Origin: Liolophura sinensis
Taxonomy: Eukaryota; Mollusca; Polyplacophora; Chitonida; Chitonidae
Reading direction: 5' to 3'
Assembly (NCBI RefSeq): GCF_032854445.1
Contig: NC_088300.1
Coordinates: forward strand, 81,458,101 to 81,522,100
Length of the DNA: 64,000 bases
Positions within the stretch are counted from its first letter, which is position 1. The number at the start of each line of letters is the position of its first letter. The position numbers and the translations under genes are program-made. This document shows, one piece after another, positions 3,306 to 26,069 of the stretch. The notes below the pieces were generated by a model. The model made no database searches. It saw only the letters and a program-made list of their open reading frames with translations, and was not told the DNA's origin.

Positions 3306-3615
3306 AAAATTGGCTGGGCTACATATGTTTATATATAACATTTGCCTTGAAACGGCCAACATTAGGTACAGGGTGAGAAGCGTAGCCAGTAATGGAACTA
3401 GTATAAGGCTGTACAGCCTGTCTTACGAACTGTTTATGAAACAGTCCCGTTGACAGGCTGGACGCATCTGCATGCGCCTAGATATCGACAATCACATTCA
3501 GTGGGACGTTGTTCACACGCACATTACACATCACTTTGGGGGCAGGTAATTGCCTGGTCTTGGTGCACAGAACTTGATTGTCCTCCTCTGGGCTTGTTAC
3601 TCCATGAACTTTGGT
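3306..3615. other. Intergenic, nothing recognised
   Basis: No repeat, exon or element could be identified. Confidence 0.4.
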
Positions 3616-4170
3616 CTGTGACTTACTGCAAACTACAGCCTTGTGGCTTTTAAGTCTGCAGGATTTGTATTTAGGGTTTTTCGCGAGGCATTTACGGGCA
3701 TTGGCCAGGTGTCGATTTGATCCACAGCAGTACCAACGTGTAGGTGAATTTTTTTTGTAGATTTCTGCTGTGGGTTAGCTCTGTAATTTACCTGAGGTTT
3801 GTTCTGAAGCTGGGATTTAGGACGGTTGTGACTTACCCCAGGGCAGGCAGAATCCACACCCAGTGAGAGTATGCCGCTTTCAGAGCTGGTCCCAACTGAA
3901 CGGGCCATTTGAATTGCATTGTTCAGTGTTAAATCAGTTTCGATCAGTAATATCTCTCTGATTCTGGGACTGCAAAGGTTTCCGATCAACTGATCGCGTA
4001 TCATCTCGTCTTGTAATGTCCCAAAATCACATAACAAGTGGACGCTAACTCACACTGTTTTGGCAATGTAGGAATTTACCGTCTCGTGTGCGTACTATGC
4101 TCGCTGGCGAAGACGATGACGTTTGTGTAACAACGTTGATTACAGGATAAAATTGTTTCTTTACCAAATT
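3616..4170 (-). pseudogene. Frameshifted gag relic of an LTR retrotransposon (Ty3/gypsy-like)
   Basis: On the minus strand an open frame at 4037-3633 contains a gag-type block (DEMIRDQLIGN, then IREILL, then DLTLNNAI) typical of retrotransposon capsid proteins. The expected C-terminal zinc-knuckle region is present but in another frame (about 3745-3620, with CCGSNRHLAN), so there is a frameshift near 3745, and the first knuckle Cys position reads Trp. A further in-frame remnant extends up to about 4170 with a stop. No protease, reverse transcriptase, integrase or LTR was seen next to it. It is a non-functional fragment. Confidence 0.7.
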
Positions 4171-5012: not shown

Positions 5013-5043
5013 ATGGCCAGCCCAATCGTCCTCTCTTCTGATG
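5013..5043 (+). CDS. RING-PARP exon 1 (31 nt coding)
   Basis: The ATG at 5013 has A at -3 and G at +4. It encodes MASPIVLSSD plus one base of a Glu codon and is followed by the donor GTAAGG. The phase joins perfectly to the exon at 7791 and completes an acidic/hydrophobic motif across the junction, which is the main reason for choosing this start. Confidence 0.75.
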
Positions 5044-8000
5044 GTAAGGGGGTCATTTCTGTCCGTCAACTGCTATCTAGGTACTTGTGATGTGTATTAA
5101 GTTGATTTGTTTTCAGTCAAGCTCGAGATTACTTTTTCTGTGTGGCCATAACAACAACAACAATACAGCTTTCACCACACTTTCGATTTCCACGCAGCAT
5201 GCATTCCTACATGACAAACACACTTGACTTCCCGTATATATGTGGTTTGACATTACATTAGAAGATGAATTATGTAGAGTTTTACCCACAAGGCAACATG
5301 TCAAACACTTATGCTCAAATAACAAGAGCTTTACAGGTCTCACACTGCTGACCGTCTTATGCTGAACGTGGACAAACACACCCCGACAACAGTTCTTTTC
5401 CAAAAGTTAAAATGGCTCACTATTTATCAGCTTGTAGGCTACTGCAAAGGTTAACAGTGTATACAAATCTCTTAATGAATATTTCACAGGATATATGTCA
5501 ACTCTGTTTTCAGTTGAATTTAAATCCTGCTATGAATTTAAGATCTACAACTGCATTTAAACTAAAAACACCTTTCCAAGAACTGAAATTGATAAAAAAT
5601 CTTATCATAGTCAAGACCAGTTTTATGGAATGCTTTGAGTAAAGAAATTCAATGTTCTTCCTTGGTTCAATGTTTTAAGAACCGATATCTTCAAGGGATT
5701 ATATACTGAAAAATGATACTTCATTTTGAGAATGCCATCATAGCACTCATGGGCTCATGTGCAGATGAGAAGGGGGTGGGAAAGGGCCATCACCCACTCA
5801 CTCGTTCTGTGCTTTGAACATGTGTATCATGAAGTTCCAAATTCTGGATAGGATAGGAAGGGGTCGGTAATGGGCCGTCTCCTACTGTCTCTTCCATTGG
5901 CTGGGATAGTTATGGTGGCAAAATTCACACTTGCTTTTATTATTAAATATAATTTAAGTTTGCTAAATTATAGCTAAAAATTGAGTTCGGGTTTAATAGT
6001 TAACTGCAGTGTTTTCAAATTTCACAAAAATTAGAGCCAGTAGTTTTCTCCTGGTATTGTATAGGATTGCATGAGTTTTCTTTCTGAAAATCTTTCTTTA
6101 AGTATTTTTAATACGAATTATCACTCTTATTGAGCAATGCAATTGCGAGAGTTACTGAGAGGAACAGTCCCAAATGTGTCGGATTGACGGTAAGGAACAT
6201 TTACCACTCTTTACATGCACATTAAATGTTCCCTAGCATAAATTGATGTCAGCTGCCTGTTCCTACAAATTAAACATATCTGTTCTTAGATTATCCTAAC
6301 TAAAAATAGCCTATGGCAATAACTCAGATTGACAAAAAAGGACAATTTCAGGGTTTAACTGTACTGCGGCCACACTCTCGATAACCCATGAACTGTTATG
6401 GTATAGGCTTGGACAATGTGATTATTTTTCATAAGCGGACGTGACTGCCATGGACCATGTTTTGGTTTTCCGAGTCTCACAACAGGCTAGTTAATTACAG
6501 AGACCACATGAGTGACATCGATTTATATAAGGGAAGATTTTATGCACCTGTGAACAGCCGTAAATGTTCCTTACCATCAGTCCAACACTTTTGGGCTCTT
6601 TAAGTAACTCTCACAACTGCTTTGCTCGATAAGAGATATGCAACTAGCAAATGTAACATTCCATGGAAAACACATGTGCACTGCTTTCCTGTCTTTTGTT
6701 TTTAGGATACTGTAATAACATTGTGGTGTGTGGCACTCATGTTTAAGGAATGGACTAAGGCCATTTTGATGTCTCAATGTTGCAAAACCAATTTGGAGCA
6801 AGTCATGGCATTTTGAGCAATTTAAGCCGGATAGATTGTAAAGATTTGTGCAGGTTATTTCTGGCCATACATATGAAAGCTACAAATTGCATACATGATT
6901 ATGGTACGAAACAATGGAAAAGTCTTACACAACCATGACTTTTAAGCCTTAGATATTCACTAGTTTACCACCCATCAGACAAAATACTTCACTTTTCATT
7001 GGACAACAAGGGTCATGTGGGGTATGGATATATTACTGAATCCTGCAGACGACGTCAAATGTCTGCTGAGTAGGTTATCTCCCTTCGTTGGGTTGTGAAT
7101 ACCATGGTCACACCTCTGAAGCGATCACCGTACATCGGTCTTCTGCACTGAATTGATGGGTCTTTGTGGGATAAATTTGTTACAAAATCCTTGCTCAATA
7201 TGAGGATTATTTCCACCATATATTTGCATATCCTATCACTGAAAAACCATGTAAATAATAAAGTCCTGTGCCATCTCAGTAACACTATATTTTCGTCCTT
7301 CTAATTTCATGGAACAGTCAAACTTTTATCGAGGGCCACTTGTCACATATAGACAGTTTGTCAGTAACTTGCAAATGGTAGGTGATTTAGCCCAGGCACT
7401 ATAGTTTCCTCCATCTATATATCTGACCATCATCATTAGATTTTTTAACATGATGTTAAACAAAAATAAGAAAAATGAAATAGTTTGACATTGTGAAAGT
7501 GACGTCTTTGTACCTGTAGCCAGATGTTTAAAAGTGTATGAAAAGTTAAGCCAGCGTTAAATATTAACATCGGTTTTGGCATAATACAAAACTAATGGCA
7601 CTTTAATCATGACTAAAGTTAGTGCCCGGCTTTAGTTCTGATACACTTTTGAACAACTGGGCTTAAAATGTCAAAAATCAACACATGAACAAAGTCAACA
7701 CCAGAATGTCAAAAATCAACAAACATGAAATAATATCAATTCTAGACACTTTGTTGTGAGAATTATATTATGAACCATTCCCAATTTCAGAGTCTGAAGA
7801 TGAGGTGGTTGTGGTTTGTGAAACAAAAGCAGCCCCAAAAGATTTAGATGAAGATGGAGATGTTGTTTTCTTGTCTATAGAGAAGTCTGATGGAGGTACA
7901 ACAAACACAGGTCATGCAAAGACAAATCATTCTGATGTTGCTTCTCTGGCCACTGACAACTCGCATGCAACTCCCCTCACATCAGATAGTTCAGATGTGA

Positions 8001-11000
8001 CTCCGCTGACTTCAGACAGCTCAGATGTAACTCCGCTGACTTCATACAGCTCAGATGTGACGCCTTTGAACACAGATATTTTGTGCACAACTCCAGTAGA
8101 CACAAATAGTTTAAATGTGGTAACTCCAGTGGTTGCCATTACTAGTGTACAGCATGTATCTAGTAAACAGGTTAAAGTTGAAGTGCTGGGGGACAGCTGT
8201 GCATCTAGGGGGCAAAGGGCGTCATCATGGGCCGTTGTTGGTAGTCAGACAGTGAGCAATGTGTCCACTGTTCTCAGCCAAAGAGCCCAACCTTTACTGA
8301 ACGGGAGTGAGGATTCTGCTGATCACATCAAAGTAACAAGCTACAAAGGTGGGGCGCACACAGTTCACCCTCAGTCTGCCAGCCCCCCTCTGTCCTGTCC
8401 CTCCCAATCCTGCCCACAGTTCTACTTAGCAGATTCTGCCAGCGTAACAACATGCTCTCCCACTCCCTCAAGGGCTTCCTCCTCCGTTGTCTCTCCTGTG
8501 ACTTTGCCAGCGACTGCAGCTGACAGTGCTTTAGACAAGACTAATCAGATGTTCACCAACTGGCTTCTGCAGGGAGCTGACTCTGGCGGGGTGTTGCCTG
8601 TGGCAGAAAGTAGCACATGTCCTGCCAAAACGTCTGTCAAGTCTTCACTCAGCCGCTCCTTCAGTTCTACCTATCCTTCTGCTGACTCGGCCAGCCACTC
8701 CTCACTGCTGTCACCTCATGTATCTGTCGAGCTATCTGGCTGTACAAGTCCTCAGACCACAAGGTTAATCTCTGATCAGAGGAATGTTCCACTGCGTAAA
8801 CGCCTGCGCAGTGATGGCGAGTTGGGGAAACCCTGGTGCAAGCTGCACGCACCTGGGGGCACAGGGCACGCGGGCTGGAGCACACGCTGCAGCGTGTGTG
8901 GGGAAGAGGAGCGTAAAGTCTCATGCTGCATGCAGGGACATCAGACCTGCTGTATCTGTCTGGAGGAACGTGCAAAATACCTGCTCAGCGACAAGAAGGG
9001 AGTAAGTTATAACAAGATAATCTACATGTATGCAATAAAAGCACCACTTCTCTTAGCACAGCTAGGCCACAAACAGCATAGTTTGGATGGAGGGGGAACA
9101 AAAATTGTCTCAGATTCACACTCAAGTATTCAGAACTTGGTTGTGTGTAAATTAATAGGTGATGTTGTTTGTCTCAATGACTGCGTATTACTAAGTTATG
9201 CTTCTTTGGAAAATATTCAGCATTATTTGACTAGCATATCAGTCAGCTTAATTTCCATAACTTTGAACTGCTGTATTTTGCTGAGATGGTCATCTGAAGG
9301 TGCTTGTAACATTCGGGGCTCGGGAGGGCTGCTTTGTTACTCCTATTGTCATCTGAAGGTGCTTGTAACTTTTGGACCTTGGGAGGGCTGCAGTGTTATT
9401 CCCATTGTCATCTGAAGGTGCTTGTAACATTCAGGGTTCAGGAGGTCTGCAGTGTTACTCCTATTTTATCTAATTTGGGTTTCGTTTTCAATTCACTGAC
9501 ACTGCTTTGATAAAAAGTTTACAAAGGCTTTTTAAATGCTCTACCTTTCATATATAGCAGTTTTTGAGGCTAACCTTGCTTCTGTTCTTGGTTATACACT
9601 GTTGCGTATGTACATGTATTACTATGTATTTTGGCAAGTGGAGGTAACAGTTATTAAAGCATTACACAAGCTTGTAACCCACATATACAGACAAATAGGA
9701 ATATTTTGATCCATGATCAGTAAGTGGTGAGATGTATGCAAAGCTGACCACTACTGCACTACTGCAGCATTCATGTAAATGCCACATCATGTTTATGTGG
9801 CTATATTCAGTTGACAGTGCATTTTATCTGTCACATCAAGTTTGTAAAGGTGGTGTCTACAGAAAGCCATTGTATTTAGAACAGTCTGTTTTTGGGACCC
9901 TTGGATGTCCTCGTGGATAAGTGGTATGATTAGATGACACAGGAAAATGGCTCCTTGGTACCAGTGGAGATAAAATTAATAAACAACATCAACAACACAA
10001 GGTTTCATATTAGATAGACATGTTTTGCTGTCCGATAGAAATACTTTTCTGGTAATAAACCTACATTGTCCATGAGTGGTAGCGTTTGATCACACTTAGT
10101 TTTGTGTAATTGTGTAACTTGTCCTGTGTTCAGTGTTGCAGTATTTCCAGGTGTGCCCAACAGGTGATGGTTAAAGGATGAACTATTCGTACATTATTTT
10201 CTTCTTGGATAAGGCTGTCTGGAAAATAATTGAGTACATGTATGATTTCTCTACCACATGTCTGAGGGAGTTGCTATCAGTAATTTGTTACACTCACAGC
10301 ATTTATTGTAACTTTGTTGGGGAATGAGAATATTTGGATTGTGTTTGTCAATGGTCATGATATGATATGTATTACTGTGAAGAGTTCATTTGTTAAAATG
10401 TGAGAAAGAAAGTGAAAATAGCCTCAGTTCTGCAAATGGAGTCTTTTCATTAACAACTAAATACATGTTACCTATTTTCCAGACAACACTGAAATGCCTG
10501 TCAGTTGGCTGTGAAAGTTTCTATCCCATGAGTGAGTAAGAGTTGTATTATCTGTGTTTTGTTTAACCCACAAGACGAATAATGTAATATTTATTACATG
10601 ACATGCAGCCATACAGAATTGTATGTAATTTCCATGTGGTACTAGATGATATGACAGAAAAGACTACAATTACAACAATGTCAGGGGAAAATATCCAAGA
10701 GATAAATTAAAAAATGGCTCTGTGAAAGCTTCTGACAACGTTTCATAAGTGGATATTTCAAGTCAAAAAATAAGATTGACTATAACAAGCTGATTATTTA
10801 TTGAAAGTGTGTGTTTGTGGCAACAGGTGAGCAATAGGTAGTGTTTGTGTGGCTATAGGTGAGCATTAGGCTGTGTGTGTGGTTACAGGTGAGCAACATG
10901 TTGGTTTGTGTGTGGTGACTGGTGAGCAATTGGCTGTGTTTGTGTAGTGACAGGTGAGCAGTAGGCTGTGAGTTGACAGGTGAATAATAGCCTGTGTTTG

Positions 11001-14000
11001 TGTGGTGACAGGTGAGTAGTAGGCTGTGTTTGTGTGGTTACAGGTGAACAATGGGTTGTTTGTGTGGTGACAGGTGAGCAGTAGGCTGTGTGTATGTGTT
11101 ACAGGCAAACAGTGTGTTTGTGTAGTGACAGGTGAGCAATAGGGTGTGTGTGTATGGTTACAGGTGAACAATGGGTTGTTTGTGTGGTGACAGGTGAGCA
11201 ATAGGCTGTATGTGTGTGGTTACAGGTGAACAGTGTGTTGGTTGTGTAGTGACAGGTGAACAATAGGCTGTGTGTATAGTTACAGGTGAACAATGTGTGG
11301 TGACAGGTGAGCGTTAGGTTGTGTGTGTGTGTTACAGGCGAACAGTAGGCTGTGTTTGTGTGTGGCCACAGGTGAGCAGTAGACTGAGTTGATAGGTAAG
11401 TAATAGGCTGTGTTTGTATGGTTACAGGTAATCAGTAGGCGGTGTGTGTGATGACAGGTGAGCATTATGCTATGTGTGTGATGACAGGTGAGCATTAGGC
11501 TGTGTGTCTGATGACAGGTGAGCATAAGGCTATGTGTGTGATGACAGGTGAGCATTATGCTATGTTTGTGATGACAGGTGAGCATTAGGCTGTGTTTGTG
11601 ATGACAGGTGAGCATGAGGCTATGCGTGTGATGACAGGTGAACATTATGCTATGTGTGTGATGACAGGTGAGCATTAGGCTATGTGCGTGATGGCAGGTG
11701 AGCATTAGTCTATGTGCGTGATGACAGGTGAGCATTAGGCTACGTGCGTGATGACAGGTGAGCATTAGGCTATGTGCGTGACCATAGGTGAGCATTAGGC
11801 TATATGCGTGTTGGCAGGTGAGCATTGTGCTATGTGTGTGTTGACAGGTGAGCATTAGGCTATGTGCGTGATGGCAGGTGAGCATTGGGCTATGTGTGTG
11901 ATGGCAGGTGAGCATTAGGCTGTGTGTGTGATGACAGGTGAGCGTTATGCTATGTGTGTGATGACAGGTGAGCATCGGGCTGTGTGTGATGACAGGTGAG
12001 CATTAGGCTATGCGTGTGATGACAGGTGAGCATGAGGCTATGCGTGTGATGACAGGTGAGCATTAGGCTATGTGCGTGATGGCAGGTGAACATTAGTCTA
12101 TGTGCATGATGACAGGTGAGCATTAGGCTACGTGCGTGACCATAGGTGAGCATTAGGCTATATGCATGTTGGCAGGTTAGCATTAGGCTATGTGTGTGTT
12201 GACAGGTGAGCATTAGGCTATGTGCGTGATGGCAGGTGAGCATTGGGCTATGTGTGTGATGGCAGGTGAGCATTAGGCTATGTGTGTGATGACAGGTGAG
12301 CATTAGGTTATGTGCATGATGACAGGTGAGCATTAGGTCAAGTGTGTGAGGGCAGGGGAGCAATAGGCTATGTGTATGATGACAGGTGAGCATTAGGCTG
12401 TGTGTGTGATGACAGCTGTATTTTGTGGTTACAGGTGAGCTGAAGCACACATTGCCTGGCATGGTGGTGGATGTGCTAGAAATACAGTTGGAGAAACACT
12501 ATGTGGATTATTTGGCTGACATGGTCATGAAAGAAGTGGACAGTGCTGCTGGTGAAGTCAATATCAGTCAAGATGATGATGACCTGAAGGATTCCAAAAG
12601 TAGTGCTGGTGCGAAAATAAAAAATGAGTGTATGGAAGTACCAAGTTCATGGATTGACATGGAACCTCAAACTGTAAGTAACGAAGACAGACAATTTTCT
12701 CAGTTTATCCTCACTGCTGAAGTTGGTGGTTTTATCCGCACTAATCTACTCTTATCTGGAGTGATGGTTGTAGTGGTATGGCTATCTTTATTGTTATAGA
12801 GTTCACAGTGGTGGTACAATCATCTTTATTGTTATAGAGTTCACAGTGGTGGTACAGTCATCTTTGTTGTTATAGAGTACACAGTGGTGGTACAGTCATT
12901 TTTATTGTTATAGAGTTCACAGTGGTGGTACAGTCATCTTTGTTGTTATAGAGTTCACAGTGGTGGTACAGTCATTTTTATTGTTATAGAGTTCACGGTG
13001 GTGGTACAATTATCTTTATTGTTATAGAGTTCACAGCGGTGGTGCAGTCATCTTTATTGTTATAGAGTTCACAGTGGTGGTACAGTCATCTTTATTGTTA
13101 TAGAGTACACAGTGGTGGTACAGTCATCTTTATTGTTATAGAGTTCACAGTGGTGGTACAATCATCTTTATTGTTATAGAGTTCACAGTGGTGGTACAGT
13201 CATCTTTGTTGTTATAGAGTTCACAGTGGTGGTACAGTCATCTTTATTGTTATAGAGTTCACAGTGGTGGTACAGTCATCTTTATTGTTATAGAGTTCAC
13301 AGTGGTGGTACAGTCATCTTTATTGTTATAGAGTTCATGGTGGTGGTGCAGTCATCTTTATTGTTATAGAGTTCACAGTGGTGGTACAGTCATCTTTATT
13401 GTTATAGAGTTCACGGTGGTGGTACAGTCATCTGTATTGTTATAAAGTTCACAGTGGTGGTACAGTCATCTGTATTGTTATAGAGTACACAGTGGTGGTA
13501 CAGTCATCTGTATTGTTACGGTATTCACAGTGGTACAGTCATCTTTATTGTTATAGAGTTCACAATGGTGGTACAGTCATCTTTATTGTTATAGAGTTCA
13601 CAGTGGTGGTACAATCATCTTTATTGTTATAGAGTTCACAGTGGTGGTACAATCATCTTTATTGTTATAGAGTTCACAGTGGTGGTAAAATTATCTTTAT
13701 TGTTATAGAGTACACAGTGGTGGTACAGTCATCTTTATTGTTATAGAGTTCACAGTGGTGGTACAATCATCTTTATTGTTATAGAGTTCACAGTGGTGGT
13801 ACAATTATCTTTATTGTTATAGAGTTCACAGTGGTGGTACAGTCATCTTTATTGTTATAGAGTTCACAGTGGTGGTACAGTCATCTTTATTGTTATAGAG
13901 TTCACGGCGGTGGTGCAGTCATCTTTATTGTTATAGAGTTCACAGTGGTGGTACAGTCATTTTTATTGTTATAGAGTTCACAGTGGTGGTACAATCATCT

Positions 14001-17000
14001 TTATTGTTATAGAGTTCACAGTGGTGGTACAATCATCTTTATTGTTATAGAGTTCATGGTGGTGGTACAATCATCTTTATTGTTATAGAGTTCACAGTGG
14101 TGGTACAATCATCTTTATTGTTATAGAGTTCACAGTGGTGGTACAGTTATCTTTATTGTTATAGGGTACACAGTGGTGGTACAATTATCTTTATTGTTAT
14201 AGAGTTCACAGTGGTGGTACAATCATCTGTATTGTTATAGAGTTCACAGTGATGGTACAGTTATCTTTATTGTTATAGAGTACACAGTGGTGGTACAATC
14301 ATCTGTATTGTTATAGAGTTCACAGTGGTGGTACAATTATCTTTATTGTTATAGAGTACACAGTGGTGGTACAGTCATCTTTATTGTTATAGAGTTCACA
14401 GTGGTGGTACAGTCATCTTTATTGTTATAGAGTTCACAGTGGTGGTACAATCATCTTTATTGTTATTGAGTTCACAGTGGTGGTACAATCATCTTTATTG
14501 TTATAGAGTTCACAGTGGTGGTACAATCATCTTTATTGTTATAGAGTTCACAATGGTGGTACAATCATCTTTTTTGTTATAGAGTTCACGGTGGTGGTAC
14601 AGTTATCTTTATTGTTATAGAGTACACAGTGGTGGTACAGTCATCTTTATTGTTATAGAGTTCACAGTGGTGGTACAATCATCTTTATTGTTATAGAGTT
14701 CACAGTGGTGGTACAATCATCTTTATTGTTATAGAGTTCACAGTGGTGGTACAATCATCTTTATTGTTATTGAGTTCACAGTGGTGGTACAATCATCTTT
14801 ATTGTTATAGAGTTCACGGTGGTGGTACAATCATCTTTATTGTTATAACGTTCACGGTGGTGGTACAATCATCTTTATTGTTATAGAGTTCACAGTGGTG
14901 GTACAATCATCTTTATTGTTATAGAGTTCACAGTGGTGGTACAGTCATCTTTATTGTTATGGAGTTCACAGTGGTGGTACAGTTATCTTTATTGTTATAG
15001 GGTACACAGTGGTGGTACAGTCATCTTTATTGTTATAGAGTTCACAGTGGTGGTACAATCATCTGTATTGTTATAGAGTTCACAGTGGTGGTACAGTTAT
15101 TTTTATTGTTATAGAGTACACAGTGGTGGTACAATCATCTGTATTGTTATAGAGTTTACAGTGGTGGTACAATTATCTTTATTGTTATAGAGTACACAGT
15201 GGTGGTACAGTCATCTTTATTGTTGTAATACTCACAGTGGTGATACAGTCATTTTTGTTGTTATAGAGTTCAAAGTGGTGGTACAGTCATCTTTATTGTT
15301 ATAGTATACACAGCGGTGGTACAATCATCTTTATTGTTATAGAGTACACAGTGGTGGTACAGTCATCTGTATTGTTACGGTATTCACAGTGGTACAGTCA
15401 TCTTTATTGTTATAGTATTCTCGGTGGTACAGTCATCTTTATTGTTTTAGTATTCACAATGGTGATACAGTCATTTTTATTGTTATGGTATTAACAGTGG
15501 TGGCACAATAATGGTATTCACAGTGGTGGTACACTTACAGTACAGTCCTCTTTTTCTATTATAGTGTTTATAATAGTGCTATAGCCCTCTGTACCGTGAT
15601 AGTATTTTACACTCTTGGTATAGTCCTCTGTAATGTGGTAGTATTTTACACTCCTAGTGTAGTCCTCAGTACCGTGATAGTATTTTACACTCCTAGTATA
15701 GTCCTCTGTACCGTGATAGTGTTTTACACTCTTGGTGTAGTCCTCTTTACTGTGGTAGTAATTTACACTCCTGGTGTAGTCCTCTGTGCTATGATAGTAT
15801 TTTACACTCTTGATATAGTCCCCTGTACCGTGATAGTGTTTTACACTCTTGGTATAGTCCTCTGTACCGTGATAGTATTTTACACACCTGGTATAGTCCT
15901 CTGTACGATGATAGTATTTTACTCTCTTGGTGTAGTCCCCTGTACTGTGATAGTATTTTACACTCTTGGTATAGTTCTCTGTACCTTTATAGTATAGTCC
16001 TCTGTACCTTGATAGTATTTTAGACTCTTGGTATAGTCCTCTGTACTGTGACAGTATTTTAGACTCTTGGTATAGTCCTCTGTACCGTGATAGTATTTTA
16101 GACTCTTGGTATAGTCCTCTGTACCGTGATAGTATTTTACTCACCTGGTATAGTCCTCTGTACCGTGACAGTATTTTAGACTCTTGGGATAGTCCTCTGT
16201 GCCGTGATAGTACTTTACACTCCTGGTATAGTCCTCTGTGCCGTGATAGTACTTTACACTCTTGGTTTAGTCCTCTGTACAATGTTGGTATTTTACACTC
16301 TTGGGATAGTCCTCTGTACCGTGATAGTATGTTACACTCTTGGTATAGTCATCTTCACTCTTCCAGTCACATTAAAATCATGATCATCTGCTTTCTTCCA
16401 GCCTTTTCTTCTGGTACAGTTGGAACCAGAGACAGAAGCCTATGTCTCAGTCTCACTCAAGTTTCATGAAACCATGAAGTTTGGATCTATTGATATAGAA
16501 AAGATCTATAGAGTGCAGAATCCTATTCTCTGGAAGTTTTACTCTGTGTAAGTACACATGTATATACATGTATACGGTGGGCATAAAGAAAGGGCCGTAC
16601 TTTGACACTCAATGTCTCCAAAACCCTGTTACATCAGCTTGTAAAAATTTACACACTCAAAAGCCATTATGTCCTAAGTCCTAATCAAAATTGAGTCAAA
16701 AACGCATGTTCCAGACATTTCAGAATGATGTTGTACCTTGTTTGACTTGAAAAGGTGATCAGTTGGTCCTCCATCTTCTCAGTAGATGGCGCTGATTGAG
16801 TCCAAAATCATGCCAGTTGAATGTCCAAAGTTTGAAAGGGTTTAAACAAAGGATAATGGAGTAATGCAGAATTAAGGTACGGCCCATTTTATAATCAGTA
16901 CAATCAGTATTGGTGTGTTAATGTTAATACTTGTTGTCTGTGAGTTCAAGTCCAACTCATGCTGACTTCCTAACCTATCCTCTGTGGAAAGGTCTGCCAG

Positions 17001-20000
17001 CAAACTGTGGATGGTCATGAGCTTCCTCCGGGTTTCTTCCCACCTAGTACTGGACTCTGTTGTATAAAAGTGAAATACTCTTGAGTATGGCTCTGTCATA
17101 TAAAGTTGAAATATTCTTCAGTACTGCCTAAAACTCCAGTCTAATAAGTAAATTAGTGCTTGTTCTCTGTCCAGTCTTCACATCAATACTGCTAATTAAA
17201 TGCTGTTCTATTTTGTGTAAGAACTTATGTCCATAGCTGAATTATCATGATAATGTTACCTTTAACTCATCTCAGTCCTTACTGTCTGTCTGCTCTCCTC
17301 ATCTGTGTTTGTCTGTGTGTGTGTTTTGTGATAATGTTACATTTAACTCATGTGTCAGTACTTACTGTCTGTCTGCTCTCCTCATCTGTGTTTGTCTGTG
17401 TGTGTGTTTTATGATAATGTTACATTTAACTCATGTCAGTCCTTACTGTCTGTCTGCTCTCCTCATCTGTGTTTGTCTGTGTGTGTGTTTTGTGATAATG
17501 TTACATTTAACTCATGTGTCAGTCCTTACTGTCTGTCTGCTCTCCTCATCTGTGTTTGTCTGTGTGTGTGTTTTATGATAATGTTACATTTAACTCATGT
17601 CAGTCCTTACTGTCTGTCTGCTCTCCTCATCTGTGTTTGTCTGTGTGTGTGTTTTGTGATAATGTTACATTTAACTCATGTGTCAGTCCTTACTGTCTGT
17701 CTGCTCTCCTCATCTGTGTTTGTCTGTGTGTGTGTTTTGTGATAATGTTACATTTATCTCATGTGTCAGTCCTTACTGTCTGTCTGCTCTCCTCATCTGT
17801 GTTTGTCTGTGTGTGTGTTTTGTGATAATGTTACATTTATCTCATGTGTCAGTCCTTACTGTCTGTCTGCTCTCCTCATCTGTGTTTGTCTGTGTGTGTG
17901 TTTTGTGATAATGTTACATTTAACTCATGTGTCAGTCCTTGCTGTCTGTCCGCTCTCCTCATGTGTGTTTGTCTGTGTGTGTGTTTTGTGATAATGTTAC
18001 ATTTAACTCATGTCAGTCCTTACTGTCTGCCTGCTCTCCTCATCTGTGTTTGTCTGTGTGTGTGTTTTGTGATAATGTTACATTTAACTCATGTGTCAGT
18101 CCTTACTGTCTGTCCGCTCTCCTCATCTGTGTTTATCTGTGTGTGTGTTTTGTGATAATGTTACATTTAACTCATGTGTCAGTCCTTACTGTCTGTCTGC
18201 TCTCCTCATCTGTGTTTGTCTGTGTGTGTGTTTTGTGGTAATGTTACATTTATCTCATGTGTCAGTCCTTGCTGTCTGTCTGCTCTCCTCATCTGTGTTT
18301 ATCTGTGTGTGTGTTTTGTGATAATGTTACATTTAACTCATGTGTCAGTCCTTACTGTCTGTCCGCTCTCCTCATCTGTGTTTGTCTGTGTGTGTGTTTT
18401 GTGGTAATGTTACATTTGACTCATGTGTCAGTCCTTACTGTCTGTCCGCTCTCCTCATCTGTGTTTGTCTGTGTGTGTGTTTTGTGATAATGTTACATTT
18501 AACTCATGTGTCAGTCCTTACTGTCTGTCCGCTCTCCTCATCTGTGTTTGTCTGTGTGTGTGTTTTGTGATAATGTTACATTTAACTCATGTGTCAGTCC
18601 TTACTGTCTGTCTGCTCTCCTCATCTGTGTTTGTGTGTGTGTTTTGTGATAATGTTACATTTAACTCATGTCAGTCCTTACTGTCTGTCTACTCTCCTCA
18701 TCTGTGTTTGTCTGTGTGTGTGTTTTGTGATAATGTTACATTTATCTCATGTGTCAGTCCTTACTGTCTGTCTGCTCTCCTCATCTGTGTTTGTCTGTGT
18801 GTGTGTTTTGTGATAATGTTACATTTAACTCATGTCAGTCCTTACTGTCTGTCCGCTCTCCTCATCTGTGTTTATCTGTGTGTGTGTTTTGTGATAATGT
18901 TACATTTAACTCATGTGTCAGTCCTTACTGTCTGTCTGCTCTCCTCATCTGTGTTTGTCTGTGTGTGTGTTTTGTGATAATGTTACATTTAACTCATGTG
19001 TCAGTCCTTACTGTCTGTCTGCTCTCCTCATCTGTGTTTGTCTGTGTGTGTGTTTTGTGGTAATGTTACATTTATCTCATGTGTCAGTCCTTGCTGTCTG
19101 CTCTCCTCATCTGTGTTTGTCTGTGTGTGTGTTTTGTGATAATGTTACATTTAACTCATGTGTAAGTACTTACTGTCTGTCTGCTCTCCTCATCTGTGTT
19201 TGTCTGTGTGTGTGTTTTGTGATAATGTTACATTTAACTCATGTGTCAGTCCTTACTGTCTGTCCGCTCTCCTCATCTGTGTTTGTCTGTGTGTGTGTGT
19301 TTTGTGGTAATGTTACATTTATCTCATGTGTCAGTCCTTGCTGTCTGTCCACTCTCCTCATCTGTGTTTGTCTGTGTGTGTGTTTTGTGATAATGTTACA
19401 TTTAACTCATGTCAGCCCTTACTGTCTGTCCGCTCTCCTCATCTGTGTTTGTCTGTGTGTGTGTTTTGTGATAATGTTACATTTAACTCATGTGTCAGTC
19501 CTTACTGTCTGTCTGCTCTCCTCATCTGTGTTTGTCTGTGTGTGTGTTTTGTGATAATGTTACATTTAACTCATGTCAGTCCTTACTGTCTGTCTGCTCT
19601 CCTCATCTGTGTTTGTCTGTGTGTGTGTTTTGTGATAATGTTACATTTAACTCATGTGTCAGTCCTTACTGTCTGTCTGCTCTCCTCATCTGTGTTTGTC
19701 TGTGTGTGTGTTTTGTGATAATGTTACATTTAACTCATGTCAGTCCTTACTGTCTGTCTGCTCTCCTCATCTGTGTTTGTCTGTGTGTGTGTTTTGTGAT
19801 AATGTTACATTTATCTCATGTGTCAGTCCTTACTGTCTGTCTGCTCTCCTCAACTGTGTTTGTCTGTGTGTGTGTTTTGTGATAATGTTACATTTAACTC
19901 ATGTGTCAGTACTTACTGTCTGTCTGCTCTCCTCATCTGTGTTTGTCTGTGTGTGTGTTTTGTGATAATGTTACATTTGACTCATGTGTCAGTCCTTGCT

Positions 20001-23000
20001 GTCTGTCTGCTCTCCTCATCTGTGTTTGTCTGTGTGTGTGTTTTATGATAATGTTACATTTAACTCATGTGTAAGTACTTACTGTCTGTCTGCTCTCCTC
20101 ATCTGTGTTTGTCTGTGTGTGTGTTTTGTGATAATGTTACATTTAACTCATGTCAGTCCTTACTGTCTGTCTGCTCTCCTCATCTGTGTTTGTCTGTGTG
20201 TGTGTTTTGTGATAATGTTACATTTAACTCATGTGTCAGTCCTTACTGTCTGTCCGCTCTCCTCATCTGTGTTTGACTGTGTGTGTGTTTTGTGATAATG
20301 TTACATTTAACTCATGTGTAAGTACTTACTGTCTGTCTGCTCTCCTCATCTGTGTTTGTCTGTGTGTGTGTTTTATGATAATGTTACATTTAACTCATGT
20401 GTCAGTCCTTGCTGTCTGTCTGCTCTCCTCATCTGTGTTTGTCTGTGTGTGTGTTTTGTGATAATGTTACATTTAACTCATGTGTCAGCCCTTACTGTCT
20501 GTCTGCTCTCCTCATCTGTGTTTGTCTGTGTGTGTGTTTTGTGATAATGTTACATTTAACTCATGTGTCAGTCCTTGCTGTCTGTCTGCTCTCCTCATCT
20601 GTGTTTGTGTGTGTGTGTGTTTTGTGATAATGTTACATTTATCTCATGTGTCAGTCCTTACTGTCTGTCTGCTCTCCTCATCTGTGTTTGTCTGTGTGTG
20701 TGTTTTGTGATAATGTTACATTTAACTCATGTGTCAGTCCTTGCTGTCTGTCCGCTCTCCTCATGTGTGTTTGTCTGTGTGTGTGTTTTGTGATAATGTT
20801 ACATTTAACTCATGTCAGTCCTTACTGTCTGCCTGCTCTCCTCATCTGTGTTTGTCTGTGTGTGTGTTTTGTGATAATGTTACATTTAACTCATGTGTCA
20901 GTCCTTACTGTCTGTCCGCTCTCCTCATCTGTGTTTATCTGTGTGTGTGTTTTGTGATAATGTTACATTTAACTCATGTGTCAGTCCTTACTGTCTGTCT
21001 GCTCTCCTCATCTGTGTTTGTCTGTGTGTGTGTTTTGTGGTAATGTTACATTTATCTCTTGTGTCAGTCCTTACTGTCTGTCTGCTCTCCTCATCTGTGT
21101 TTATCTGTGTGTGTGTTTTGTGATAATGTTACATTTAACTCATGTGTCAGTCCTTACTGTCTGTCTGCTCTCCTCATCTGTGTTTGTCTGTGTGTGTGTT
21201 TTGTGATAATGTTACATTTAACTCATGTGTCAGTCCTTACTGTCTGTCCGCTCTCCTCATCTGTGTTTGTCTGTGTGTGTGTTTTGTGGTAATGTTACAT
21301 TTATCTCATGTGTCAGTCCTTGCTGTCTGTCCACTCTCCTCATCTGTGTTTGTCTGTGTGTGTGTTTTGTGATAATGTTACATTTAACTCATTTCAGCCC
21401 TTACTGTCTGTCCGCTCTCCTCATCTGTGTTTGTCTGTGTGTGTGTTTTGTGATAATGTTACATTTAACTCATGTGTCAGTCCTTACTGTCTGTCTGCTC
21501 TCCTCATCTGTGTTTGTCTGTGTGTGTGTTTTGTGATAATGTTACATTTAACTCATGTCAGTCCTTACTGTCTGTCTGCTCTCCTCATCTGTGTTTGTCT
21601 GTGTGTGTGTTTTGTGATAATGTTACATTTAACTCATGTCAGTCCTTACTGTCTGTCTGCTCTCCTCATCTGTGTTTGTCTGTGTGTGTGTTTTGTGATA
21701 ATGTTACATTTATCTCATGTGTCAGTCCTTACTGTCTGTCTGCTCTCCTCAACTGTGTTTGTCTGTGTGTGTGTTTTGTGATAATGTTACATTTAACTCA
21801 TGTGTCAGTACTTACTGTCTGTCTGCTCTCCTCATCTGTGTTTGTCTGTGTGTGTGTTTTGTGATAATGTTACATTTGACTCATGTGTCAGTCCTTGCTT
21901 TCTGTCTGCTCTCCTCATCTGTGTTTGTCTGTGTGTGTGTTTTATGATAATGTTACATTTGACTCATGTGTAAGTACTTACTGTCTGTCTGCTCTCCTCA
22001 TCTGTGTTTGTCTGTGTGTGTGTTTTGTGATAATGTTACATTTAACTCATGTCAGTCCTTACTGTCTGTCTGCTCTCCTCATCTGTGTTTGTCTGTGTGT
22101 GTGTTTTATGATAATGTTACATTTAACTCATGTGTCAGTACTTACTGTCTGTCTGCTCTCCTCATCTGTGTTTGTCTGTGTGTGTGTTTTATGATAATGT
22201 TACATTTAACTCATGTGTAAGTACTTACTGTCTGTCTGCTCTCCTCATCTGTGTTTGTCTGTGTGTGTGTTTTATGATAATGTTACATTTAACTCATGTC
22301 AGTCCTTACTGTCTGTCTGCTCTCCTCATCTGTGTTTGTCTGTGTGTGTGTTTTATGATAATGTTACATTTAACTCATGTGTCAGTACTTACTGTCTGTC
22401 CGCTCTCCTCATCTGTGTTTGTGTGTGTGTTTTGTGATAATGTTACATTTAACTCATGTGTCAGTCCTTGCTTTCTGTCTGCTCTCCTCATCTGTGTTTG
22501 TTTTGTGCTGTGCAGGAAGAAACAGCAGATGAGCCAGGATCATGAAGGAGAAATGGTGGAGGAAAAACTGCTGTTCCACGGCACCAATGACGACGCAGTA
22601 GATGCCATATGCAAATCTGGTTTTGACTGGCGGCTATGTGGCAAGCATGGGACTATGTACGGCCAAGGTATAACCACCCGTCCGTGGCTCCCTGGCAGCA
22701 TCACGGTGACTGCTCAACACCCGTCAGTAGCTCCCTGACAGCATCACTGTGACTGCTCAACAACCCTTAGTAGCTCCCTGACAACATCACTGTGACTGCT
22801 CATTACCCCTGAGTAGCTTCCTGACAGCATCACTGTGACAGCTCATCACCCCTGAGTAACTCCCTGACAGCATCACTGTGACTGCTCATTACCCCTGAGT
22901 AACTCCCTGACAGCATCACTGTGACTGCTCATCACTCCTCAGTAGTTCCGTGACAGCATCACTGTGACAGCTCATCACCCCTCACTAGCTCAGTAGCTCC

Positions 23001-26000
23001 CTGACAGCATCACTGTGACAGCTCATAACCCGTCAGTAGCTTCCTGACAGCATCACTGTGACTGCTCATCACCCCTCAGTAGCTCCCTGACAGCATCACT
23101 GTGACAGTTCATAACCCGTCAGTAGCTTCCTGACAGCATCACTGTGACAGCTCATCACCCCTGAGTAACTCCCTGACAGCATCACTGTGACAGCTCATCA
23201 CCCGTCAGTAGCTCCCTGACAACATCACTGTGACTGCTCATCACCCCTGAGTAGCTTCCTGGCAGCATCACTGTGACTGCTCAACACTCGTCAGTAGCTC
23301 CCTGACAGCATCACTGTGACTGCTCATCATCTCTCAGTAGCTCCCTGAGGGCATCATTGTGACTGCTCAACACCCGTCAGTAGCTCCCTGACAGCATCAC
23401 TGTGACAGCTCAACACCCATCAGTAGCTCCCTGAGAGCATTAGTGTGAGTGCTCAACACCCGTCGTTAGCTCCCTGACAGCATCACTGTGACTGCTCAAC
23501 ACCCAGCAGTAGCCCCCTGACAGCATCACTGTGACTGCTCAACACCCGTCGTTAGCTCCCTGACAGCATGCCTGTGACTGCTCAACACTTGTCAGTAGCT
23601 CCTTGACAGCATCACTGTGACAGCTCATCACCCCTCAGTAGTTCCCTGACAACATCACCCCTGAGTAGCCCCCTGACAGCATCACTGTGACAGCTCAATA
23701 CCCCTCAGTAGCTCCAACAGCATCACTGTGACTGCTCAACACCCGTCAGTAGCTCCCTGACAGCATCTCTGTGACTGCTCAACACTTGTCAGTAGCTCCA
23801 TGACAGCATCACTGTGAGTGGTCAACACCCCTGAGTAACTTCCTAACAGCATCACTGTGACTGCTCATCACCCCTGAGTAGCCCCCTGATAGCATCACTG
23901 TGACTGCTCATCACCCCTCAGTAGTTCTCGTGACAGCATCACTGTGACTGCTCATCATCTCTTAGTAGCTCCCTGACAGCATCACTGTGACTGCTCAACA
24001 CCCATCAGTAGCTCCCTGACAGCATCACTGTGACTGCTCAACACCCGTTAGTAGCTCCAACAGCATCACTGTGACTGCTCAACACCCATCAGTAGCTCCC
24101 TGACAGCATCACTGTGACTGCTCAACACCCGTCAGTAACTCCCTGACAGCATCACTGTGACTGCTCAACACTTGTCGGGAGCTCCCTGACAGCATCACTG
24201 TGAGTGGTCAACACCCCTAAGTAACTTCCTAACAGCATCACTGTGACTGCTCATCACCCCTGAGTAGCCCCCTGATAGCATCACTGTGACTGCTCAACAC
24301 CCATCAGTAGCTCCCTGACAGCATCACTGTGACTGCTCAACACCCATCAGTAGCTTCCTGACAGCATCACTGTGACTGCTCAAGACTTGTCAGTAGCTCC
24401 CTGACAGCATCATCCCTCAGTAATTCCCTGACAGCATCACTGTGACTGCTCAACACCCCTGAGTAACTCCCTGACAGCATCACTGTGACTACTGTGACTG
24501 CTCATCACTCCTCAGTAGCTCCCTGACAGCATCACTGTGATTACACATCACCCCTGATTGGCTCCCTGCCAGGATCAGTGTATGATTGCTTATCACCTCT
24601 TGGTAGCTCCCTGCCAGCATCAGTTTGTAACATAATTATGGCTGCTATTATAAATCTGCTGGTTTCTCTGTATGCTTCTGTTATATTTTGTGACAGGCTT
24701 GTTTTAAAACACGATTTCTCTTGAAACTTTGAAGACATTTTTATTAAGCTTGTACCACATGAGCACCTACAGATAATCATACAGATCATCTGACAGAAGC
24801 ACCCTATTTGTTTTCAGTGACCTTGATCTACTTTTTCAAGGTCATTAGGACTCTGCCTCTTTTACCTTGTAAACGTTGGCATCTGTAGAATGCTTGTGGC
24901 CATGTTTATTAAACTTCAGCCACATGTACACGTAGGCAATATGAATGGGCCTGTGTATCTGTTACCTTGTAAGCACACTACCTACTGCGTGTAGGGCCGG
25001 GCAGTATTTTAGTGCATTTTTCACTGTAATTGTTTTTGTATTTCTTTGTGTGTACTTTGTTTTAGTCAGTCAGGTTTTCTTCTCTGTTTTAGGTTCGTAC
25101 TTTGCCCAGACAGCATCTTACTCCCATCAGTACTCGGCTGCGGCAAAGGTTAACCGACGGGGCAGACATCCACTCACTGGCTTGTTGGGAGGGAAAGTCC
25201 GGGCCTGCAAGATCAAGATCCCCAAACTGCCCAAAAAGTCTTCTGCGAGCTCACCTCAGGCCATGCAGCTTAATAACTATACCTTTCTCTCCAGCTCAGC
25301 TGGTGTCAATCCAACCACCAGTGGTCCATACAGCTCTGGACTAGGAGGCTTAACCATGTCCTCTGTGGCAGGAGGCCAGTTTCCAGCCCCCTGTGTCCTG
25401 CCTCCATCCAGCCCTGTCAGCCACAGCATGAGCTCAGCCACTCACGGCTCGAGCATAGGTAGCCATGGTAGCAGTGTCTTCACCTCTAGCTCCACAACCC
25501 CAGCTGGAACTGGGGGGCCTCAGACACTGAGCTGGCCACCCTCACAGCCTAACCCCCTTAACCTGTCCATGAGCAGCTATTCCACACCCAGCTCTACTGC
25601 CCCACCAAATGTAGCCCTCTCTTCTCCTCTGGGAGCCCATTGCAGCTCAGCCCTAAGCTCCTTGTCAACCAATGCCAGTCTTACAGTGCCTGGGATGACA
25701 GGATTCTACCTGCCTCACGCCTTCCTGGCTAATGTCGTCTCCAGTCAGGCAACGGCGGCAAACCTAGGATTTGGCAGTGCACCAGCCCTGGGGGGGACAG
25801 GGAGTAAGCAAGTGTCAAGCAGTGCACTTTTGACTGACAGCGACGCCCCTGTGTTTAAGATGTTCCTGGCGCGGGTACTGGTGGGCACTTACACTACTGG
25901 GAACAATGACCTTCGTAAACCTCCGCCATTGGACCCAGTCTCTGACCCATACGGCAGGTGCTTTGACAGCTGCGTTGACAATGTCATCTCACCTAAAATA

Positions 26001-26069
26001 TTTGTTGTGTTTGATTCAGCTCAGGCATATCCGGAATACATCGTGCATTATAAAGAAAATGTTTCTTAG
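5013..26069 (+). CDS. RING finger - PARP-family mono-ADP-ribosyltransferase (spliced, 7 coding exons, 934 aa)
   Basis: Assembled CDS: 5013-5043, 7791-9001, 10483-10531, 12435-12673, 16402-16547, 22516-22667, 25093-26069 (2805 nt, all phases consistent, all GT-AG). Residues 4-19 form two SUMO-interacting-like segments. About 20-350 is Ser/Thr-rich with a 10-residue tandem repeat at about 56-95. Residues 377-424 form a C3HC4 RING (C377, C380, C390, H394, C397, C400, C419, C424) followed by an 'SEL..tLP' segment, as in RING1 of RNF216-type RBR ligases; no IBR or RING2 follows. About 520-934 is the PARP fold: YRVQNP..LW, LFHGT (H580), FDWRLCG, GSYFA (Y612), MFLARVLVG (866-874) and C-terminal YPEYI (I926). 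An H-Y-I triad predicts mono-ADP-ribosylation (family knowledge). About 240 Ser/Pro-rich residues interrupt the fold after Y612. The combination suggests an enzyme linking ubiquitin, SUMO and ADP-ribose signalling, perhaps in stress or immunity; that is inference. Confidence 0.85.
6118..6642. repeat. Inverted-repeat foldback element in intron 1
   Basis: The segment at about 6118-6235 is repeated in inverted orientation at about 6528-6642. Both arms share GTAAATGTTCCTTACC, then CAACAC or CGACAC TTTGGG, then GTAACTCTC, then TTGCTC and ATAAGAG. Identity is roughly 75-80 percent by eye, with a spacer near 290 bp. A non-autonomous foldback or MITE-like relic is inferred. Confidence 0.65.
7520..7660. 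mobile_element. MITE-like element, 141 bp, with 20-bp terminal inverted repeats
   Basis: The left end CCAGATGTTTAAAAGTGTAT and the right end ATACACTTTTGAACAACTGG are reverse complements with two mismatches in 20. The interior has no coding capacity. No clear target-site duplication was identified, so the superfamily is not assigned. Confidence 0.65.
7791..9001 (+). CDS. RING-PARP exon 2 (Ser/Thr-rich region and first part of RING)
   Basis: The acceptor CCAATTTCAG precedes 7791 and the donor GTAAGT starts at 9002. It encodes residues 12-414: an acidic/valine motif (SEDEVVVV), a tandem SSDVTPLTSD-type repeat, a long Ser/Thr/Pro-rich low-complexity region, and the first six zinc ligands of the RING. 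The open frame continues into the intron to 9415 without coding character. Confidence 0.9.
7930..8080 (+). repeat. Coding minisatellite, 30-bp period, within exon 2
   Basis: Tandem copies encode variants of the decapeptide TPLTSDSSDV (about four copies, residues about 56-95). The 30-bp period keeps frame. It adds clustered Ser/Thr next to Asp, which are possible phospho-sites. Confidence 0.8.
9002..10482 (+). other. RING-PARP intron 2, with three 59-60-bp tandem copies at 9287-9475
   Basis: Three tandem copies of a unit containing GTCATCTGAAGGTGCTTGTA lie at about 9287-9475. The rest (9476-10482) shows no exon or named repeat. Confidence 0.6.
10483..10531 (+). CDS. RING-PARP exon 3 (49 nt, last RING cysteines)
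   Basis: The acceptor is CTATTTTCCAG and the donor GTGAGT starts at 10532. It encodes residues 415-430, including C419 and C424. An alternative donor at 10536 was rejected because it would bring a stop into frame with exon 4. Confidence 0.8.
10532..10800 (+). other. Start of RING-PARP intron 3, unique sequence
   Basis: Unique AT-rich intron sequence before the array; nothing recognised. Confidence 0.5.
10805..12434 (+). repeat. Splice-junction minisatellite in intron 3, 30-bp unit, about 50 copies
   Basis: The unit is close to ATGACAGGTGAGCATTAGGC followed by TATGTGTGTG. The 5' third is more irregular and often carries GTGGTTACAGGTGAGC, the same 16 bases that form the exon 4 junction at 12425-12440. 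The array runs straight into exon 4. Every unit carries CAGGTG (an E-box), a CAG acceptor and an immediately adjacent GTGAGC donor. Minus-strand Thr/Cys/His-rich open frames here are artefacts of a period divisible by three. Confidence 0.95.
12435..12673 (+). CDS. RING-PARP exon 4 (post-RING helix and linker)
   Basis: The acceptor GTGGTTACAG ends at 12434 and the donor GTAAGT starts at 12674. It encodes residues 431-510: SELKHTLPGMVVDVLE resembles the end of RNF216-type RING1 domains, then an acidic linker with DDDD. The acceptor and first six exon bases (GTGAGC) match the units of the preceding minisatellite. Confidence 0.85.
12755..15540 (+). repeat. Minisatellite in intron 4, 38-bp unit, about 70 copies
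   Basis: The unit contains TCATCTTTATTGTTATAGAG followed by TTCACAGTGGTGGTACAG. Recurrent variants (TACACAG, ATTATC, CTGTATT) recur in blocks, suggesting block-wise duplication. It starts about 80 bp after the exon 4 donor and contains no exon sequence. Confidence 0.95.
15541..16350 (+). repeat. Second minisatellite in intron 4, 39-bp unit, about 20 copies
   Basis: The unit contains TAGTCCTCTGTACCGTGATA followed by GTATTTTACACTCTTGGTA. It follows the 38-bp array directly with a short degenerate transition and ends about 50 bp before exon 5. Open frames on both strands are period artefacts. Confidence 0.93.
16402..16547 (+). CDS. RING-PARP exon 5 (start of PARP catalytic domain)
   Basis: The acceptor CTTTCTTCCAG ends at 16401 and the donor GTAAGT starts at 16548. 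It encodes residues 511-558, with the conserved IEKIYRVQNPILWKFY entry segment of TIPARP/PARP12-like catalytic domains. Confidence 0.9.
16548..16929 (+). other. Start of RING-PARP intron 5, unique sequence
   Basis: Unique intron sequence, nothing recognised. Confidence 0.5.
16930..17160 (+). mobile_element. Diverged family A SINE with duplicated 3' part
   Basis: GTGAGTTCAAGTCC at the start, a CTGCCAGCAA segment and GTGAAATACTCTTGAGTATGG match family A. The 3' core then repeats (GTTGAAATATTCTTCAGTAC), so the 3' end is internally duplicated. It is more diverged than the copies at 3092 and 60687. Confidence 0.75.
17240..22512 (+). repeat. Large minisatellite filling intron 5, 79-83-bp unit, about 64 copies
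   Basis: The unit runs TGTGATAATGTTACATTTAA, then CTCATGTGTCAGTCCTTACT, then GTCTGTCTGCTCTCCTCATC, then TGTGTTTGTCTGTGTGTGTG. Units with CATGTCAG instead of CATGTGTCAG are 2-3 bp shorter. The last unit merges into the exon 6 polypyrimidine tract and acceptor. Variant patterns repeat at long range (see findings). The many Cys-rich open frames are shadows of the array. Confidence 0.97.
22516..22667 (+). CDS. RING-PARP exon 6 (catalytic His, donor loop)
   Basis: The acceptor TGCTGTGCAG ends at 22515 and the donor GTATAA starts at 22668. It encodes residues 560-609, with LLFHGTNDDAVDAICKSGFD and WRLCGKHGTMYGQ. H580 is the NAD-binding histidine of the triad. Confidence 0.92.
22675..24620 (+). repeat. 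Minisatellite in intron 6, 43-bp unit, about 45 copies
   Basis: The unit contains GTCAGTAGCTCCCTGACAGC followed by ATCACTGTGACTGCTCAACA and CCC. It starts within about 10 bp of the exon 6 donor and decays into unique sequence near 24620. Confidence 0.95.
24621..25092 (+). other. End of RING-PARP intron 6, unique sequence
   Basis: Unique sequence ending in the TCTCTGTTTTAG acceptor. The open frame that begins at 24945 is only an intronic extension of exon 7. Confidence 0.6.
25093..26069 (+). CDS. RING-PARP exon 7 (terminal exon with Ser/Pro insert)
   Basis: The acceptor CTGTTTTAG ends at 25092 and the stop codon TAG is 26067-26069. It encodes GSYFAQTASYSHQYS, then about 240 residues rich in Ser, Thr, Pro and Leu, then MFLARVLVGTYTTGNNDLR, SCVDN, PKIFVVF and YPEYIVHY. 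The whole stretch is one uninterrupted open frame. Confidence 0.9.

Follow-up and report, generated by a model that had tools for sequence, protein, structure and literature searches.

Deltex proteins and PARPs are known to connect ubiquitin with ADP-ribose signalling in trans, and a locus in the chiton Liolophura sinensis raises the question of whether one gene joins a ubiquitin-ligase module to a PARP catalytic domain and, if it does, what the two parts would do together. The locus lies in a stretch of 64,000 nucleotides (hereafter, the window; C6:81458101-81522100), which we analyzed together with searches of its host genome, 609,464,459 bases in 632 contigs. The assembly was published as Liolophura japonica, a name later corrected to L. 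sinensis (PMC11068029, in the excerpt available; PMC12441733). An earlier note on this DNA had described an RNF216-type RING finger fused to a PARP domain, called the architecture a candidate for an undescribed one, and suggested that one polypeptide could couple ubiquitin transfer and mono-ADP-ribosylation.

In the present analysis, we find it on balance probable that the gene encodes a chimeric mono-ADP-ribosyltransferase, in which an RNF216-type RBR without RING2 is joined to a PARP12-like ADP-ribosyltransferase (ART) domain and an E2-docking RING1 would feed that domain. The ART half can be recognized from the protein itself, and the identity of the RING half was settled through a paralog elsewhere on the same contig.

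Results

Structure of the gene

The seven phase-matched exons proposed earlier are all present on the plus strand at 5013-26069, separated by six GT-AG introns, and encode a product of 934 amino acids whose stop codon ends at 26069. The N-terminal PIVLSSDESEDE of this product resembles what we take to be the consensus of a SUMO-interacting motif (SIM). The features of the gene, with the tandem arrays that make up most of introns 3 to 6, are as follows.

5013..5043, plus strand: exon 1, with the start ATG and the donor GTAAGG in phase 1; exons 1 and 2 together encode MASPIVLSSDESEDEVVVV, the SIM-like N-terminal start of the protein
7791..9001, plus strand: exon 2, encoding a Ser/Thr-rich region and ligands 1-6 of the predicted RING1, and lying inside an open stretch of 551 aa
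8888..8959, plus strand: first part of the predicted RING1, C377-C400 (C377, C380, C390, H394, C397, C400)
10483..10531, plus strand: exon 3 (49 nt), with predicted RING1 ligands C419 and C424 (C-x4-C)
10808..12415, no strand: tandem array of 30-32-bp units, most of intron 3
12435..12673, plus strand: exon 4, with the RING1-IBR-helix-like SELKHTLPGMVVDVL, then an acidic linker, then the PARP start VPSSWIDMEPQT
12784..16354, no strand: tandem arrays of 38- and 39-bp units, most of intron 4
16402..16547, plus strand: exon 5, N-terminal part of the PARP domain (IYRVQNPILWKFY)
17248..22501, no strand: 83-bp tandem array, most of intron 5
22516..22667, plus strand: exon 6, PARP domain with triad residue H580 (codon 22577-22579, in LFHGT)
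22675..24622, no strand: 43-bp tandem array, most of intron 6
25093..26069, plus strand: exon 7, PARP domain with Y612 (25098-25100), the insertion, the last strands with I912 (25998-26000), and the stop

Downstream of the gene, the minus strand carries kinesin motor exons in convergent orientation. Searches of Rfam (at the gathering threshold) and NCBIfam returned nothing useful, and in a search of viral contigs one stretch fitted a pattern and none was confirmed.

A PARP12-like ART domain

Across the full window protein, PARP was the sole Pfam family at E <= 1, with no CCCH, WWE or DTC match. The domain (PF00644) was found in two stretches at E 2.1e-26, scoring 93.1 bits against a curated cutoff of 26.7, and residues 1-373 submitted by themselves matched no Pfam family. 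The closest solved ART domain is that of PARP12 (2pqf; E 2.1e-43), whose alignment covers residues 508-625 and, as a second block, 859-930. The intervening residues 626-858, about 233 aa rich in Ser and Thr, form an insertion that splits the PARP domain ahead of its last strands. The core is 50% identical to human PARP12. Since the alignment with PARP15 begins at residue 495, the start of the PARP domain lies inside exon 4.

These matches bear out the earlier description of a full PARP domain with H580 and Y612. The third residue named there, I926, has to be replaced: position 926 is an isoleucine, but the alignment to PARP12 places the triad at H580, Y612 and I912, the last within K-I-F-V-V-F. 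In PARP12, the tyrosine follows the histidine by 32 residues, the isoleucine of SIFVIF by 96 and that of EYVIQ by 111; we take I660, 96 residues after H564, to be the PARP12 triad residue, and I926 matches the residue at distance 111. An H-Y-I triad is read as mono-ADP-ribosylation. The window PARP is a PARP12-like mono-ART with this triad, and its activity is predicted.

A RING whose class is read through a paralog

The eight RING ligands are found where the earlier note had placed them (C377, C380, C390, H394, C397, C400, C419 and C424) and complete a C3HC4 cross-brace set, for which zinc binding is predicted. When residues 341-520 or the whole protein were shuffled, 20,000 times each, no shuffle produced the pattern C-x2-C-x(8-12)-C-x(1-3)-H-x2-C-x2-C-x(10-25)-C-x(2-4)-C. 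The profile search that had been suggested for the 934-residue product recovered the PARP domain and gave no significant Pfam match for the RING. Submitted alone, the RING again had nothing significant in Pfam, a shorter piece returning a PHD match at chance level (E 4). In the PDB it did not retrieve RNF216 at E <= 10; it matched the RING1 of ARIH2 at E 0.46 and a pilin backbone chain at 4.7e-4, the latter in two stretches of E 5.8 each, in which the aligned pilin has no cysteine. From its own sequence, the class of the window RING would have stayed doubtful.

Used as a query against the host genome, the PARP segment found nine matches, of which two are exons 6 and 5 of the window gene itself. 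One of the others, on the contig of the window but at a distance of 38 Mb (C6:43.697 Mb), keeps the PARP intron places of the window gene and belongs to a gene that we call paralog B (C6:43,687,223-43,700,384), modeled in ten exons with zero internal stops and a provisional 5' end. Upstream of its PARP part are a RING exon, a 49-nt C-x4-C exon equal in length and phase to exon 3 of the window gene, an exon for an LPGM-x-x-D-x-L helix, and two IBR exons; the helix after the RING is retained in both genes. Five introns occupy equivalent places and phases in the two: between C6 and C7 of the RING, after the 49-nt exon, before the first PARP strand, after Y-x-V, and in G-Q-G. The site of the PARP insertion is also common to both, and four extra introns of paralog B have no counterpart in the window gene. 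The two PARP cores are 54% identical and are mutual best matches among seven rows, although the fork that unites them in the tree of these seven rows is unsupported. By eye, paralog B also has a CUE-like stretch, for which Pfam gave no family and the best PDB match had E 2.

The RING1-IBR of paralog B matches human RNF216 (7m4m, 8eb0) at E 6e-18 over 141 residues and ends where the IBR ends; its IBR_1 match, at E 1.5e-4, falls under the curated cutoff. Because of this match and the common gene structure, the RNF216 class of the window RING can be regarded as settled. A profile built from the two chiton RINGs only finds RNF216 at 3e-7, with the next chain at 0.069. When human RNF216 is added to the profile, its own match becomes a self-match, and the other matches up to E 1 are RBR RING1s (ARIH1, ARIH2, RNF144A and 1wim). 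In pairwise comparison, the window RING matches RNF216 at 9e-6 and the paralog RING at 8e-13, the latter with 34% identity, and the window protein, paralog B and human RNF216 share all eight ligands and a P...L...LP pattern without change. The earlier designation of an RNF216-type RING is thus supported, as a sequence-based prediction of an RNF216-class RING1.

Missing modules and other loci

The IBR was not found in the window, where the best tblastn match had E 1.4, and neither gene model has a RING2 with a catalytic Cys between the RBR part and the PARP domain. In paralog B, the second IBR half is followed by the PARP start, LPSHWSTTDM, within one exon (C6:43,694,897-43,695,049), with no RING2 between. 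A tblastn search with a human IBR-RING2 sequence covered the window and the 40 kb around paralog B and returned no RING2 match under E 5.5; its reach is limited, as it also missed the second IBR half of the paralog.

We searched 14 fetched stretches for a RING near the other PARP matches and found the six-ligand pattern in paralog B only. Ten of these stretches surround six other PARP matches, with 10-20 kb covered per match, and a RING split by an intron within the pattern or lying farther upstream would escape such a search. The other chiton PARP matches were rejected as RING-PARPs, with no six-ligand RING pattern in the fetched stretches. By eye, the upstream ORFs of the loci at C9:23.6, 20.5 and 4.4 Mb resemble CCCH fingers.

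A separate RNF216-like copy at C6:18.742-18.744 Mb has RING1, IBR and RING2 pieces and no PARP match at E <= 1 in the 30 kb covered. Its RING1-to-IBR pieces are close to each other, in different frames and without introns, so this copy does not carry the introns of the chimeras, and such an arrangement does not identify it as a working gene. Searching the genome with the window RING retrieved, besides its own exons, only four rows with E between 0.5 and 6.9, and searching with the paralog RING1-IBR retrieved the paralog's own exons only; as neither search retrieved the other gene, a diverged third copy could escape both. The PARP-based search retrieved both the window gene and the paralog.

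Discussion

Proposed origin and mechanism

We infer from these comparisons a rearrangement that ran from RING2 loss through the join to IBR loss. An RNF216-type RBR ligase gene would have been cut after the IBR and before the catalytic RING2 (Rcat), and the truncated gene would have acquired a PARP12-like ART domain. The chimera would then have been duplicated, with paralog B representing the RING1-IBR-PARP stage, and the window copy would also have lost its IBR. Loss in the window gene, rather than gain in the paralog, is suggested because the similarity of the paralog to RNF216 is unbroken. Several observations weigh against the reading as a whole: by itself the window RING matches nothing significantly in Pfam and does not retrieve RNF216 from the PDB, the fork uniting the two genes is unsupported, four introns of paralog B lack a counterpart in the window gene, G381 stands in our alignment for RNF216 Y519, and the introns of the chimeras are missing from the RNF216-like copy at C6:18.74 Mb.

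In the mechanism that we propose, RING1 would dock an E2, with a preference for charged E2~Ub kept in the open state typical of RBRs, and would present E2, ubiquitin or complexes that bear ubiquitin to the ART domain. The ART domain would use NAD+ to mono-ADP-ribosylate the delivered E2 or ubiquitin, or neighboring proteins, and its SIM-like N-terminus may also direct the protein to SUMO-bearing sites. Docking of E2 or E2~Ub ahead of the ART domain appears likelier than the action of an autonomous ligase because RBR RING1s keep E2~Ub open. According to the available portions of the sources, an RBR RING1 docks E2~Ub while HHARI RING1-IBR alone does not enhance E2~Ub reactivity (PMC3305615), and RBRs hold E2~Ub open, with extra residues between ligands 7 and 8 disfavoring the closed state (PMC5548887, PMC9834252). 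More tentatively, the gene might be a catalytic-module swap, in which the RING2 of an RBR was exchanged for an ART domain, RING1 (with or without the IBR) delivers charged E2 or ubiquitin, and ubiquitin, E2 or E2~Ub is ADP-ribosylated.

Alternative explanations

A somewhat unlikely alternative is that RING1 (in the paralog, RING1 and IBR) no longer handles an E2 and is a relic, a structural or dimerisation element, or a ubiquitin-reading module, so that the protein would be an otherwise ordinary PARP12-like mono-ART with an unusual N-terminus. The absent IBR of the window gene and the divergence of its RING from that of paralog B (34% identity) would fit such a role, as would a drift of E2-interface residues: in our alignment, G381 stands for RNF216 Y519, a residue that matters for E2-Ub discharge (PMC9834252, in the part available). 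However, all eight ligands have been retained in both genes despite this divergence, and the LPGM-x-x-D-x-L helix has been kept as well.

We consider it unlikely that the protein is a working dual enzyme, with a RING that discharges ubiquitin from E2 in the manner of ordinary RING E3s and a PARP domain that adds ADP-ribose. The ligand set is complete, and V379 occupies a canonical E2-contact position, as V284 does in HOIL-1 (position after PMC9834252). However, the RING is a RING1 of the RBR class. In a canonical RING E3, two residues separate ligand 7 from ligand 8 and a linchpin Arg follows the latter, whereas in the window RING C419 and C424 are separated by four residues and Glu425 takes the linchpin position. 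The HHARI result (PMC3305615) and the RBR loop that blocks the closed state (PMC5548887, PMC9834252) weigh against this reading too, within the portions of those papers available. RBR RING1s are without the linchpin arginine, and the accessible text of PMC5548887 rates a missing linchpin as a secondary factor. By this analysis, the window protein alone is probably not an efficient ubiquitin ligase. The earlier idea of one polypeptide coupling ubiquitin transfer to mono-ADP-ribosylation therefore survives as far as the single gene goes, and its transfer half is weakened by a predicted RING1 without RING2, by C-x4-C and by Glu425.

It is very unlikely that the gene model merged two neighboring genes or that the join is an assembly accident. 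Tandem repeats do fill the introns, and the model comes from genomic sequence, but exon 4 by itself encodes the tail of the RING and, in frame and uninterrupted, the beginning of the PARP domain, which upholds the claim of a single gene, and the paralog is joined likewise, its IBR ending and its PARP domain beginning inside a single exon. As each of these is a single open exon, we reject read-through or an assembly artefact. That paralog B repeats the join, together with five introns, the PARP insertion site and the 6e-18 match to RNF216, corroborates the predicted single-gene fusion. Finally, a decaying copy that has lost expression, which the lost IBR and very repeat-rich introns might suggest, is extremely improbable given seven open exons, canonical splice sites and a PARP core still 50% identical to human PARP12.

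Relation to known systems

RNF216 (TRIAD3), an RBR E3, shares with the window RING the C-x3-H and C-x4-C spacing followed by a P-x-x-x-L-x-x-x-LP helix, and its whole RING1-IBR is matched in the paralog; the window gene differs in having neither RING2 with its catalytic Cys nor IBR, and a PARP domain instead. A figure legend on HOIL-1 and RNF216 names a SIM and a CUE domain (PMC9834252, in the part available), which in our reading belong to RNF216; a SIM-like start is seen in the window protein and, by eye, a CUE-like stretch in the paralog. Among the PARP12-type mono-ADP-ribosyltransferases (Clade 3 PARPs), PARP12 provides the closest solved ART domain and the same H-Y-I triad, but the window protein has no CCCH or WWE match in Pfam, an RBR-derived RING1 in their stead, and the insertion of about 233 aa.

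Ubiquitin-related domains have been linked to PARPs before. As described in the available excerpts, a Dictyostelium U-box-macro-PARP (DDB0232928 or, in the same paper, DDB0393590; PMC2964712, PMC4245714) resembles the window protein in joining a RING-related E2-binding fold to a Clade 3 PARP in one polypeptide and differs in its U-box and macro domain, with no RBR ancestry mentioned in those excerpts. DTX3L-PARP9 likewise couples a RING E3 to a PARP but, as the earlier note had it, as two proteins, with a Deltex RING-DTC, whereas the window protein has no DTC match in Pfam; the ADPr-ubiquitin chemistry of DTX3L is independent of PARP9 (PMC12687431, in the part available). Clade 6 PARP6/8 homologues of fungi, moss and a green alga fuse a ubiquitin-pathway domain, UBCc, to a PARP (PMC4245714, excerpt); unlike in the window gene, this domain is E2-like and the PARP belongs to another clade. 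PARPs bearing UBA and RWD domains are also described (PMC2964712, PMC4245714, excerpts).

The matches listed from the open-licence literature included no report of a PARP combined with an RNF216- or RBR-type RING, in agreement with the earlier note, to which no RING of this class in a PARP was known. What appears to be new is the pairing of an RBR-derived RING1 with a PARP; ubiquitin-linked PARPs as a kind are already known. The description as an undescribed architecture accordingly appears to hold for an RNF216-class RING with a PARP and falls for a ubiquitin-E3 fold with a PARP, for which the available text on the Dictyostelium U-box-PARP offers a precedent (PMC2964712, PMC4245714).

Conclusions

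The window gene and its informative paralog B represent two forms of one rearrangement, without and with the IBR, respectively. RNF216 binds an allosteric ubiquitin at the RING1-IBR interface (PMC9834252, in the part available). If the catalytic-module swap is true, it would mean that RBR scaffolding can be rewired from ubiquitin transfer to ADP-ribose transfer. A single polypeptide that retains the E2-docking part of an RBR and carries an ART domain in place of the catalytic part would provide a natural case in which to test the wiring between ubiquitin and ADP-ribose signalling.

Genomic context of the RING-PARP gene

Long tandem arrays occupy the introns and the 3' flank of the RING-PARP gene, and more are found throughout the remaining window, including the kinesin region.

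Window features:
10808-16354, tandem arrays of 30-, 38- and 39-bp units, introns of the RING-PARP gene
17248-22501, tandem array of 83-bp units, intron of the gene
22675-24622, tandem array of 43-bp units, intron of the gene
27441-28881, tandem array of 49-bp units, 3' flank of the gene
48378-57068, minus strand, kinesin motor exons (PF00225)
3478-4049, minus strand, retroelement-like ORFs in which a run of cysteines resembles a zinc knuckle, judged by eye
61093-61187, plus strand, tRNA-Met call (ARAGORN)

The tRNA-Met call is enclosed in a further array, of 39-bp units (61035-62795), and is probably spurious. The kinesin motor exons, whose Pfam family was matched in four of the ten window ORFs tested, are convergent with the RING-PARP gene. 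For the retroelement-like ORFs, a Pfam search of 3636-4049 (minus strand) returned no match.

Related loci and the insertion in the PARP domain

Elsewhere on the same contig, C6, pieces of an RNF216-like copy (RING1, helix, IBR and RING2) are spread across different frames within a few hundred bases:
L040:8082-8454 and 9607-9702 (G000:C6:18.742-18.744 Mb), RNF216-like copy

This copy is a pseudogene, or else the sequence is of poor quality there. The RING-PARP paralog (G000:C6:43687223-43700384; gene model 5'-partial) has the domain order RING1-IBR-PARP, with a Ser-rich exon of 3.45 kb and a start that, judged by eye, is CUE-like. In each of the two RING-PARPs the PARP domain is interrupted, ahead of its final strands, by a long insertion of low complexity, which spans residues 626-858 in the window protein and lies at the equivalent place in the paralog; the PARPs at 23.6 and 20.5 Mb on contig C9 lack such an insertion.
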